A stretch of DNA of 32,489 bases, from contig CALLKY010000159.1 in assembly GCA_938083135.1 (NCBI GenBank), forward strand, positions 1 to 32,489. Direction: 5' to 3'. The stretch's first letter is position 1. Every line of letters starts with the position of its first letter. This document shows positions 1 through 3,185 of the stretch, piece after piece. The DNA is from an uncultured Alphaproteobacteria bacterium. Lineage in GTDB: Bacteria; Pseudomonadota; Alphaproteobacteria; Bin95. Made by a program: the position numbers and the translations under genes. Under the pieces are notes generated by a model. The model had not been told where the DNA came from, searched no databases, and worked only from the letters and a program-made list of their open reading frames with translations.

Positions 1-142
1 TCATGGCTCCGTCGAGCGTCATTGGCGCCGTCATCCCTTCAAGACGGAGCGCGCCAACGAATGTGGTCGTCTTCCAGTGGCCATGAGGCACGGCCGCCCG
101 GCAGCGCTCGCCTCTGGGCGCGCGGCCATAGCGGCGGGCCAG
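1..142 (-). pseudogene. IS630-family transposase remnant (central part, continues off the window)
   Basis: Read leftward from about 142, the minus strand encodes LARRYGRAPRGERC, then VPHGHWKTTTFVGALR, then GMTAPMTLDG. This is the typical core of the IS630/DDE_3 transposase family, just after the first catalytic aspartate region. The expected DETW-type segment upstream is absent. The frame extended to higher coordinates is unrelated in sequence and meets a TGA near 206, so the N-terminal half is missing. The copy looks like a truncated relic unless the rest lies elsewhere. The C-terminal half would lie outside the window and cannot be judged. The family call is from recognition of the motif string, not a search. 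Confidence 0.75.
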
Positions 143-344
143 TCCGCTGGATTGCGTCTGGCTATGGGCACATTCTCTTTTTTTCGCTCGGATCTTTGCA
201 TATCAAGCCGCATGGCATGGCGTGACACATCCGAAACTCTAGCCTATTGAAAAGTCTGAGCTCTAATCTCCGGGCGTGACATTTCCACAGACGCTGCGTG
301 ACATACACAGAGCAAGCATCGCACAGCTGCGCCCGAATTCGCTT
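143..344. other. non-coding stretch between the IS remnant and the QueC-like gene
   Basis: No credible gene is visible. The stretch follows the 3' end of the QueC-like gene and carries three copies of GCGTGACA (annotated separately). Short open frames on both strands around 22-228 are explained by the transposase relic and have no recognisable protein character. Confidence 0.5.
220..303. repeat. three direct copies of GCGTGACA
   Basis: Identical 8-mers start at 220, 274 and 296. The last two are 22 bp apart and extend to CGTGACAT followed after 3 or 1 bases by CACAGA. On the other strand they read TGTCACGC. Clusters of short direct repeats of this sort occur at the ends of some transposons as transposase-binding sites, and also as operators. 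Which applies here is not determinable from the window. Confidence 0.45.
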
Positions 345-2192
345 CTATTCGGCGCTAATTGAAATCAGATGGACGACTGACGGATTAAGCCGATAGCCGC
401 GACGCGGCAGGTTCTCGATGATCATGTTATCGTCGATGAAGGCTTGGCTCTCGTTTAGTTTTCGCAGCCGACTACGGCAGCGCTTGACCACTTGGCGCAC
501 TGAATCTTCTGACGTCCAACCGAGACCATCCGCAATCTCACTGGCAGTCATGAAGCGAAAATTCTCAAGAGCTCGTCCTTGCGTCTGATCCTCCCAAAAT
601 ATGTTCGCGAGCAGTGTGAGAACCTCCGCGTTCTGGCCTTTCACGACGTCATTGCTAACTTGTACTTGCGGCCGAGCGCTAGGCAGAACACAGATCTCAA
701 TGGCCGCCGCTATGGGCAACCGCATCTCGTCCTGTGAAATTACAGGCTTTTCTGCCCGGTCGGTATCGGCGGCGCCCAATAATGCCAGGAGACAGTCGCG
801 CGGCAGCGTACCTTCTGCGAATTCGTGTCGATGAACTTCTAAGCCCCTGGCGACGGCGGTCACTACTGATTGCCCATGACGCTTCAGCAGCCCAAGAATA
901 CGGAGCGCGGCAAGGTCTTCTGCTCCTTCGTCCGCGCGTATGACACGCGATATTTCTGGAAAGGTGTGGAAGAGACCGGTGTCGTCTTCTCGGTGCATTG
1001 TCCGCGCGATCTCGACCATGCCAAGCGCCAAGGCCCGCTGGGGGCCGACAGGGCGGGCGCCTGTAAATAATGGGGTTTTATAGGCCTCCTGGGGGTCGTG
1101 CACTTCGGCTTGCGCAGCAACGACGGCGAGCCTTCGGTCGACGCATTGAGAGCAAATTCCGCAATGTGGATACTGAATTGTCGCTGACCGGACATTCGCA
1201 CAACTGCGCGTGTCTCTGATGTTGTCCTGCATGCCAGATTGCACGACAGCTTCAACAATCTCGGTTTTCGTGCGATCAGCAAAGGGATTACGCACGCTGA
1301 AAGATTGATTGAACAGCGCACTGAAGACTTGACCGAAACCCTTTAACGCAACTGGATGGGTCGACCGCGTGGCACGGGCGCCGACGACTTGGCGGGAGAT
1401 CGGCAAATTCAAACTTGTCACACCGTTCTCATAAAAGGCGCAGTCGTCTTTACCAAACAGCCTAGCGACGACAGCCGCCAGCGCGGCAAATAGAAAGGAA
1501 CGCGCGCGATGTGTGCTTTCCTTATTGGAACGCTGTGTCAGTTGCGTCCACACAGGAACATGAAAAACACGCGCCTTACCGAACTTTGCCTGGAGAGCCT
1601 GAATCAGTAGTAATTGGGCCTTCGCAATCTGGTTTGCTGATCGATGACTAATCAGCGCTAAGGAGTCATTACTCCGCGCCAGGATCTCTGCAGCGCCCGC
1701 GAACGAATCCAGCCCGCCAGAAAACAGCTGCACTCGATCTATCCTTGGTCGCTCCGTCGCGGCTTCGTCAAACTTGAAATACGCTTGACGTTTGGGTTGG
1801 TTTGTCAGGCCGACAAACTGAAATTCATAAAAATCGTCCGACAAGATCGAAAGCGTTTCTGTCAACGGCGTTAGGACATCTGACCGCTGCCAGAGCTTTA
1901 GGTCGCGCACCGGCACTGTCAGCTTGAATTTACGCCGCCACCGCTTACCCCATTCCGCATCCTTTGCCCCTCCGCGCACAACGTGGGCATCGGCGGCATA
2001 AACAAAGGCCGCGACCTCTAACAAATCGAGCAGCACATCGGGAATATCGGCAACCATCGGGCCGCTGACGTCTTCGATACGGAGCATGACTTCTGGGTCG
2101 AGACCATCCAATCTCAACGCATATGTGTTCGCGCCCAGTCTTTGGCCCTTGGCGGTCTCCCCGCAGAAGAAGACATGTTCACTGCCCGGCAT
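345..2192 (-). CDS. QueC-like PP-loop enzyme with C-terminal winged-helix domain (candidate defence protein)
   Basis: A 615-residue protein. Residues 1-150 are an unrecognised N-terminal region. A PP-loop ATP-pyrophosphatase motif FSGGLDSFAG lies at 157-166, and ENGVTSLNLP with QVVGARATRSTHP at about 255-280. A zinc-site pattern C331...C344-GI-C347-SQ-C350 matches the QueC arrangement. Residues about 545-604 look like an OmpR/PhoB-type winged helix ending in ENLPRRGYRLNP. QueC makes 7-cyano-7-deazaguanine (preQ0); housekeeping QueC is only about 220-240 residues, so this is not the queuosine enzyme. Related long QueC-like proteins are QatC of the Qat system and Cap9 of type IV CBASS, where a deazaguanine is attached to a partner protein (recalled from literature). 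Both catalytic and zinc residues are intact, which argues for activity. It overlaps the end of the upstream gene by 14 bp, so the two are translated together. The wHTH fusion suggests DNA binding or self-regulation (inference). Confidence 0.82.
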   Translation of the reverse strand: MPGSEHVFFCGETAKGQRLGANTYALRLDGLDPEVMLRIEDVSGPMVADIPDVLLDLLEVAAFVYAADAHVVRGGAKDAEWGKRWRRKFKLTVPVRDLKLWQRSDVLTPLTETLSILSDDFYEFQFVGLTNQPKRQAYFKFDEAATERPRIDRVQLFSGGLDSFAGAAEILARSNDSLALISHRSANQIAKAQLLLIQALQAKFGKARVFHVPVWTQLTQRSNKESTHRARSFLFAALAAVVARLFGKDDCAFYENGVTSLNLPISRQVVGARATRSTHPVALKGFGQVFSALFNQSFSVRNPFADRTKTEIVEAVVQSGMQDNIRDTRSCANVRSATIQYPHCGICSQCVDRRLAVVAAQAEVHDPQEAYKTPLFTGARPVGPQRALALGMVEIARTMHREDDTGLFHTFPEISRVIRADEGAEDLAALRILGLLKRHGQSVVTAVARGLEVHRHEFAEGTLPRDCLLALLGAADTDRAEKPVISQDEMRLPIAAAIEICVLPSARPQVQVSNDVVKGQNAEVLTLLANIFWEDQTQGRALENFRFMTASEIADGLGWTSEDSVRQVVKRCRSRLRKLNESQAFIDDNMIIENLPRRGYRLNPSVVHLISISAE

Positions 2193-2961
2193 CTCGCCGC
2201 ACCTTAAGTTCCCGCCGCATCTTCCGGAGTGCGTAAGCCGAGAAGCCTTTGATCTTGTCAGGCGTTAATCCGCCTTCCTGATAAACGGCTTTGCCATACC
2301 AACCGCCGGAGAACTTCTCGACTATCTCCGCCGCTTCCCAACAATGCCGGGCGATGTCATTTGAGAACCGCACCCTTGCGGCGTCGTCATCGAACCGCGC
2401 CGCTGGTCCAACATGATCCGGCAAAGCGCGGCTGAGATAGAAGTTCAGCGTCCGCTCTGTCACCTGTGCGAAAAAGCAGCGCGCCAGGAGGGCAAAACCG
2501 TTACCCGAAGCCAGGCGTCCCACAGCATGGCGAACGTCTTCCGCTGTTGGACCGAATAACGATGGCAACGCTGCGCCGACAATGCGATTGACACTTTCGA
2601 TCGCAGCCATCTGACCGATCTCACCGAGATCGGACCGTTCGCCAATTTTCAACGCTTTTGCATCGACAGCTTGAGATAAAGCTGAAGTCAGTTCGATAAG
2701 ACTAGGCGCGCTTGATACGTTAAGCCCAAGCGCCTGGAGATCGCGTACATAATCCGGCCCACGCGCCGCCAATGGGATCTCTGTCAACAAGGACAGGCTA
2801 TAAAGGACTAGAGGATCAACCGCAGCAATCTTCAGGCCGCCTTCGGCCGCCAATGTGGCGCTTGCTGCGATCTCCGAAACATTGCCGCCGCCTTCAAGCG
2901 CAGCGATCACGTCCCGCCAACGCTTGGTCGCCAGCAATGGCCCAAGCCGAATATGACCCAT
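2179..2961 (-). CDS. unknown 260-residue protein, partner of the QueC-like enzyme, N-terminus Met-Gly
   Basis: I do not recognise a named family. The protein is soluble, largely alpha-helical and has no membrane segment. It begins MGHIRLGPLLATKRW and ends in a basic tail (RKMRRELKVRRDAGQ). The start is placed at ATG 2961, because GGGGAGAG sits about 4 bases upstream at the right distance. A GTG at 2991 in the same frame would add ten residues, but those codons contain that ribosome-binding site. With the ATG start, residue 2 is glycine, exposed after methionine removal. In type IV CBASS and, as I recall, Qat, QueC-like enzymes modify the N-terminus of a partner protein. This gene could therefore encode the substrate, in the position of QatB or CdnD, although no nucleotidyltransferase motif (GS...DxD) is visible. 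The gene is first in the operon; its last 14 bp overlap the next gene. Confidence 0.72.
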   Translation of the reverse strand: MGHIRLGPLLATKRWRDVIAALEGGGNVSEIAASATLAAEGGLKIAAVDPLVLYSLSLLTEIPLAARGPDYVRDLQALGLNVSSAPSLIELTSALSQAVDAKALKIGERSDLGEIGQMAAIESVNRIVGAALPSLFGPTAEDVRHAVGRLASGNGFALLARCFFAQVTERTLNFYLSRALPDHVGPAARFDDDAARVRFSNDIARHCWEAAEIVEKFSGGWYGKAVYQEGGLTPDKIKGFSAYALRKMRRELKVRRDAGQ

Positions 2962-3044
2962 TACTCTCTCCCCAAAGGAAGGTTGACGCACTCATAGGGG
3001 GAAAGGCAATAGGCAGCGAATCAACCCATTTTTTGGTGCGCGAA

Positions 3045-3063
3045 GCTTACCTAGCGCTTACCT
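3045..3063. promoter_or_regulatory. 11-bp-period direct repeat upstream of the QueC-like operon
   Basis: GCTTACCT occurs at 3045-3052 and again at 3056-3063, a period of exactly 11 bp. It lies about 85-100 bp upstream of the ATG at 2961, between the operon and the tRNA gene. OmpR/PhoB-type winged helices typically bind tandem direct repeats with 10-11 bp spacing, and the second gene of the operon carries such a domain. An autoregulatory site is therefore plausible. No convincing -35/-10 pair was identified. Confidence 0.35.
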
Positions 3064-3110
3064 TGGGGATTGTGTGGAGTTGCCAAATCTTCTTAAGCTA
3101 TTGAAAAATA

Positions 3111-3185
<75 letters not shown>

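Follow-up and report, generated by a model that had tools for sequence, protein, structure and literature searches.

A mobile gene pair with QatB-like and QatC-like products, without QatA or QatD, in an uncultured alphaproteobacterium

Does a long QueC-like gene lying beside a single partner gene form a system in its own right, or is it what is left of a larger one, and does it work with deazaguanine? This question is raised by two overlapping genes on the reverse strand of contig CALLKY010000159.1 (assembly GCA_938083135.1, uncultured Alphaproteobacteria bacterium), whose positions 1 to 32,489 were analysed and are hereafter called the window. A preliminary description of this DNA proposed an undescribed, deazaguanine-linked defence operon, either a minimal two-component arrangement or a remnant cut by an insertion sequence (IS). 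The pair is best filed as a new variant, namely a QatBC-type module without QatA and QatD. We give a probability of about 0.72 to the reading of the pair as a QatBC-only anti-phage module whose QatC domain modifies the N-terminal glycine of the partner, with DNA targeting or cutting supplied by a fused C-terminal module.

Anatomy of the pair

The two genes and their parts are arranged in the window as follows.

2179..2961, reverse strand: partner gene, intact, 260 amino acids (aa), QatB-fold all-helical protein with the N-terminus MGHIRLG
2917..2961, reverse strand: partner codons 1-15, conserved motif MGHxRLGxLPxTRxW, putative modification site Gly2
345..2192, reverse strand: QatC-like gene, intact open reading frame (ORF) with ATG start, 615 aa, overlapping the partner gene by 14 nucleotides (nt)
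768..2192, reverse strand: QatC-type domain, residues 1-475 (N-terminal extension, PP-loop core, C-terminal helices), matching 9y02_B (Z 34.7) and 9vlk (3.8e-64)
1695..1724, reverse strand: PP-loop FSGGLDSFAG, residues 157-166, conserved in family alignments
1143..1202, reverse strand: zinc cysteines C331, C344, C347 and C350, invariant in family alignments
357..701, reverse strand: OmpR/PhoB/CadC-type winged helix, residues 498-612, by its match to CadC (5ju7), the family hits to Trans_reg_C and secondary structure

The reading frame of the partner runs from a GTG codon over 2179-2991 (-), giving 270 aa; nonetheless, the ATG at 2961 is the likely start, since homologues share the MGH beginning and GGGGAGAGAG lies just upstream.

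The larger protein resembles QatC in fold, motifs and sequence. Its model superimposes on QatC (9y02_B) over 408 residues, covering model residues 4-472, and 9vlk was retrieved in the PDB sequence search. The residues of the published QatC signature (SGGxDS loop, D(x)4R...WxR, DxYxxxF, RxRxxxF, ExG, HP, P(x)4TK, zinc cysteines and RR; PMC13329287) are all present, and invariant or nearly so in family alignments; the intact PP-loop and the four zinc cysteines pointed out in the preliminary description are thus confirmed, the zinc-site spacing being shorter in this protein (C(x)12C vs. C(x)19C). Profile searches of both proteins, which that description had suggested, place the first near QatC (5.6e-58 in PADLOC); on the curated NCBIfam equivalog NF041925 it scores 213.2 bits, below the 280-bit cut-off, and is therefore QatC-like, outside the equivalog. 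The window partner matched nothing in the Pfam, PADLOC or NCBIfam profile libraries, so annotation tools see half of the system at most.

The partner family as a whole has no significant sequence match in Pfam, PADLOC or PDB, and in this sense its description as a protein of no recognised family holds by sequence; by fold it does not, as the protein is QatB-like. The AlphaFold model (predicted local distance difference test score, pLDDT, 93.4), for which one plasmid-record row was left out of the alignment, matches QatB 9y01_A in VIA-align with Z 13.2 over 206 residues, the runner-up chain reaching 4.1, and in Foldseek with probability 1.00, template modelling scores of 0.54/0.63 and E 0.04, without any other good match. 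Z values of such size can arise by chance among helical proteins; the match is credible because of the gap to all other chains, its coverage and the gene context.

The best-conserved stretch of the partner in the family alignment is its N-terminal motif, MGHxRLGxLPxTRxW. Since the search for relatives used part of this motif, conservation was re-measured on 55 homologues not matching the search motif: Gly2 and His3 are kept in 54/55 and Trp15 in 52/55, and the columns conserved at 90% concentrate in residues 2-15 (6/14 vs. 18/249 overall, P = 1.3e-4), with a mild bias on N-terminal conservation from the loose motif by which homologue start codons were picked. QatB itself starts with MGTS and has conserved Pro16 and Trp18, its G2D replacement abolishing defence, and the nucleotidyltransferase (CD-NTase) of the type IV cyclic oligonucleotide-based anti-phage signalling system (CBASS) starts with MGGS and is deazaguanylated at Gly2 (PMC13279940). 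The partner has MGHxRLGxLP in place of MGTS and keeps Gly2; by analogy, the occurrence of Gly, Pro and Trp in the same order in both proteins suggests a shortened form of the same tail.

The QatC-like protein extends beyond its QatC-type domain, and the earlier statement that no effector is present overlooked its C-terminal winged helix, as well as the DpnII/MboI-type nuclease of other family members. Residues 498-612 of the model show the expected strands, three helices and C-terminal hairpin, and match the CadC DNA-binding domain with Z 9.6 over 93 residues; Pfam Trans_reg_C was found in 3 family members (best E 1e-9), the window protein not being among them. In 8 members a DpnII/MboI-type restriction endonuclease domain (Pfam DpnII-MboI) replaces the winged helix, with a PD...(E)xK pattern conserved in the alignment as judged by eye. 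Classified with seed hidden Markov models, 97 C-termini comprise 54 winged helices, 8 nucleases, 21 unannotated helical modules and 14 assigned to none of these. The mainly helical module (loci L027, L041, L111, L123 and 17 others) is common in Planctomycetota and viral contigs.

Relatives, linkage and genomic context

A search of genome contigs with the window partner alone retrieved no relative. Early homologues came from a Leptospira noguchii plasmid and an alphaproteobacterial genome, and the three-sequence alignment of both with the window partner, used as query, yielded 102 relatives from genome contigs, of which 80 were kept, and 36 from viral contigs; the INPHARED phage collection gave no partner match. 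By record title, the relatives belong to Alpha-, Beta-, Gamma- and Deltaproteobacteria, Planctomycetota, Bacteroidota, Ignavibacteriota, Chloroflexota, Gemmatimonadota, Verrucomicrobiota, Bacillota and candidate phyla, Leptospira too.

The partner comes first and the QatC-like gene next on the same strand in 116/119 loci, with overlapping genes in 113 when longest-ORF starts are used, a linkage far beyond chance that bears out the coupling proposed earlier. Among 289 genomes of the class there are 8 QatC-like matches, and both of those belonging to the window clade carry the partner. The neighbourhood survey that had been suggested gives the same picture, and neither of the two findings named there as refutation came up: the partner accompanies the homologues of the QatC-like clade, and neither a recurring third gene nor recurring que genes were found beside the pair in this mechanical survey of longest ORFs, some of whose clusters are antisense ORFs. 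A plasmid QatC-like copy without partner adjoins IS3 transposase genes and may be truncated. Fragmented or shortened QatC-like frames at L038, L040, L050, L054, L121 and L131 suggest that the system often decays.

Two overlapping genes on mobile elements could also form a toxin-antitoxin-like addiction module, one protein being toxic and the other restraining it by modification or binding. We hold this very unlikely: both proteins match QatB and QatC, whose complex is a defence unit (PMC13279940), the genes are large, and antitoxins are usually less elaborate than this enzyme.

QatA and QatD were looked for by tblastn, with six query sequences of each, in the 119 pair loci and 13 qatABCD control loci; both were found in 13/13 controls and neither in any of the pair loci (0/119), which rules out a qatABCD identity for the pair and argues for a self-contained arrangement. 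In a tree of 74 QatC cores, a quick search without bootstrap, the partner-linked proteins form one group of 58 rows (Shimodaira-Hasegawa-like approximate likelihood ratio test, SH-aLRT, 95; branch 0.89), separate from the QatC proteins of qatABCD and from a third type. The partner in this third lineage (SH-aLRT 100) has 190 aa and begins with M[ST]DGPH[RK]SLP, and QatA and QatD are again missing; the partner gene lies upstream of the QatC-like ones at L015:6183-7559 and L016:5943-7307, and the lineage is also seen at L153:3824-5775, on a rhizobial plasmid where an XRE/IrrE-type regulator comes next.

Beyond the 3' end of the QatC-like gene lies the following feature.

1..142, strand not assigned: IS630-family transposase relic, at the contig end

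The relic was already noticed in the preliminary description, and it is real, matching IS630-family transposase genes. Together with the contig end it lies just downstream of two genes with QatB and QatC folds, as would be expected if a qatABCD operon had decayed, losing qatA and qatD, e.g., through the IS630 insertion. The 0/119 count, however, refutes this for the family, the QatC clade being moreover separate, with its own C-terminal modules and partner family, so that decay has next to nothing left in its favour. Thus, of the two arrangements envisaged earlier, the minimal two-component one stands and the cut remnant falls. Nor is the system undescribed in the sense of being unrelated to known ones, as folds and sequence make it a relative of QatBC; a literature search, which took in few subscription papers and preprints, found no published description of the pair.

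On the other side of the pair, two features point to integration.

3111..3185, reverse strand: tRNA-Thr(CGT), probable integration site; the partner ATG lies 149 nt beyond its 3' end
3045..3062, reverse strand: GGTAAGC-N4-GGTAAGC direct repeat with 11-bp period, probable attachment (att)/integrase-arm site, kept in tRNA-linked loci

This tRNA gene, directly upstream of the pair, is absent from the preliminary description. Nineteen alphaproteobacterial relatives have a tRNA-Lys, -Thr or -Arg gene whose 3' end precedes the partner ATG by 124-149 nt; nearly all of them show the 11-bp-spaced GGTAAGC repeat in between, and in most of them qatC has a convergent tyrosine integrase gene directly behind it. 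In a congener for which no copy of the pair was detected, the same tRNA gene is followed by a similar repeat and then by the contig end, and for this reason the repeat is read as part of the attachment region. The repeat about 50 nt past the tRNA end and the convergent integrase directly after the cargo characterize a family of tRNA-targeting integrative elements (window 3045-3185, L019, L022, L023, L026, L033 and others). In the available flank no tRNA 3'-end duplication of at least 14 bp was found, and the integrase of the relatives was undetectable in window 1-400, where the contig ends; the IS630 relic and the contig end occupy that side. By Pfam sampling, window 3321-32489 looks chromosomal (acyltransferase, oligopeptide ABC transporter parts, glycosyltransferases, PEP carboxykinase, amidase).

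Elsewhere, the pair is often found in prophages, islands or viral contigs, and also on plasmids, with D5-type primases, terminase small subunits, Hma components and type I methyltransferases as neighbours. It travels with prophages, integrases and defence genes, which supports the self-contained two-gene arrangement. The winged helix and the tight placing between tRNA, repeats and integrase in most tRNA-linked loci would also fit an accessory regulator of the mobile element, whose winged helix binds element DNA and in which the partner, once modified, governs excision, expression or immunity towards related elements; any defence would then target sister elements, not phages generally. The repeat, with its pho box-like 7-4-7 layout, was considered as an operator of the winged helix and rejected: it tracks tRNA-linked elements and is missing upstream of 31/32 other winged-helix loci, and the congener just described has a similar repeat beside the same tRNA. 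As prophages and plasmids also carry the pair, as Hma or type I restriction-modification genes are found next to it, and as a nuclease replaces the winged helix in some pairs, such a regulator is unlikely, even if it is the most plausible of the rival explanations considered here.

Mechanism and the donor question

Under the QatBC-only reading, the QatC-type domain would bind ATP and hold the QatB-fold partner, then activate a small carboxylate and join it to the exposed partner N-terminal glycine (Gly2 after Met removal); the donor of this modification need not be 7-carboxy-7-deazaguanine (CDG). The link to DNA would come from the fused C-terminal module, which is a winged helix in the window protein and a DpnII/MboI-type nuclease in a sister group; this module may replace the two proteins missing from this lineage, QatA as DNA binder and QatD as nuclease. 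Cap9 joins a carboxylate to its CD-NTase, a like action of QatC on QatB has been proposed, and QatBC without QatA and QatD protects against lambda-vir (PMC13279940). A QatBC-like working of the pair is well supported by its computed anatomy (gene structure, conserved linkage, both folds, glycine motif, QatA/QatD absence, and mobile and defence contexts); from it we infer complex formation, N-terminal modification and DNA targeting, and defence against phages is likely.

Several points weigh on the other side. The sequence profiles of partner and QatB are weakly linked (hhalign probability 27%, E 7e-4 in a single comparison; best hmmsearch --max score 14.6 bits). The flexible tail of the partner model has only about 12 residues, the first helix starting at residue 13, and the disordered tail of QatB has 30-90 (PMC13279940); with so short a tail, the partner N-terminus may fail to enter the QatC active site as that of QatB does. 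The chemistry of QatC itself is yet to be reconstituted (PMC13279940). Finally, the host lacks detectable QueC, QueD and QueE, and CDG is thus not made there by the known route.

This last point, which makes the proposed deazaguanine link unproven and doubtful, goes beyond a single genome. In the host genome, which is 99.99% complete, the QueE search matched MoaA alone, the QueC search gave short PP-loop matches only, and nothing was found for QueD or Cx14CxxC-type QueE. QueC is above cut-off in 27/50 carrier genomes, and 17/50, the window host included, have no QueC, QueD or QueE at the thresholds used, one of the 17 (G341) showing a weak frame-split QueC-like match; isolate genomes such as those of Maritimibacter alkaliphilus HTCC2654 and Flavimaricola marinus are among those with joint absence. 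Absences of single que genes are soft, since the QueE model missed 7/27 QueC-positive genomes. Tgt is kept in 19/19 QueC-less genomes tested, consistent with queuine or preQ1 salvage. As background QueC in the class stands at 102/289 genomes, the pair shows no dependence on the pathway. Among six sampled genomes with other QatC-like genes, three (G065, G100, G252) are also without detectable QueC and QueD, so the donor question reaches beyond the window clade.

The pocket points the same way: where the CDG-recognising one has Tyr/Asp, QatC-type proteins have Thr/Thr and the window protein T275/S277, a residue correspondence inferred from alignment. Because of the joint absences and this replacement, host-made CDG is unlikely as a universal donor. 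It is possible, and we put it forward tentatively, that the enzyme attaches a donor other than host CDG to the partner glycine, or uses deazaguanine precursors that are available only during infection by a phage carrying deazaguanine genes of its own. If so, an N-terminal protein conjugate or an infection cue of a new kind would drive a two-gene immunity with built-in DNA binding or cutting. On the other hand, the distant QueC match might suggest a role in queuosine or 7-deazaguanine nucleoside metabolism; with 17.4 bits against the 150.3 cut-off of TIGR00364, motifs of the QatC type where QueC has its canonical ones, no que genes recurring nearby and a host without detectable QueD or QueE as feed, the protein is not a QueC member and such a role is highly improbable.

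The pair among known systems

A recent study found that QatB and QatC alone stop some phages, the reaction and donor of QatC not being identified (PMC13279940). The present pair isolates this least understood Qat step, in which an enzyme recruited from tRNA-base synthesis tags the end of a protein. Natural QatBC-only units, carrying a putative DNA-acting fusion, occur in many phyla, including bacteria apparently unable to make CDG, and provide a compact system for studying the reaction, a genomic argument against host-made CDG as universal donor, and three partner families to compare (QatB, MGHxRLG and M[ST]DGPHxSLP).

With housekeeping QueC, the QatC-like protein shares the PP-loop ATP pyrophosphatase fold and the zinc site; it differs in length (615 vs. 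about 220 aa), in its QatC-type instead of canonical substrate motifs, and in not being linked to queuosine genes. Type IV CBASS likewise sets a QueC-family ligase, Cap9, beside a protein with a conserved N-terminal glycine, CdnD. However, the partner described here has the QatB fold and is not a CD-NTase, there is no effector gene, and Cap9, of about 185 aa, keeps the Tyr/Asp CDG pocket of QueC, whereas the window protein has the QatC-type Thr/Ser pair. The closest likeness is to QatB-QatC of qatABCD, with which the pair has in common both folds, gene order and gene overlap, the QatC signature residues, PP-loop and zinc cysteines, and the partner N-terminal glycine, QatBC alone sufficing against some phages in the known system. 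In contrast to qatABCD, the pair is without QatA or QatD. Its partner does not clearly resemble QatB in sequence, has a short tail and begins with MGHxRLG where QatB has MGTS, and its QatC belongs to a clade of its own, in which a winged helix, a nuclease or a helical module is fused on.
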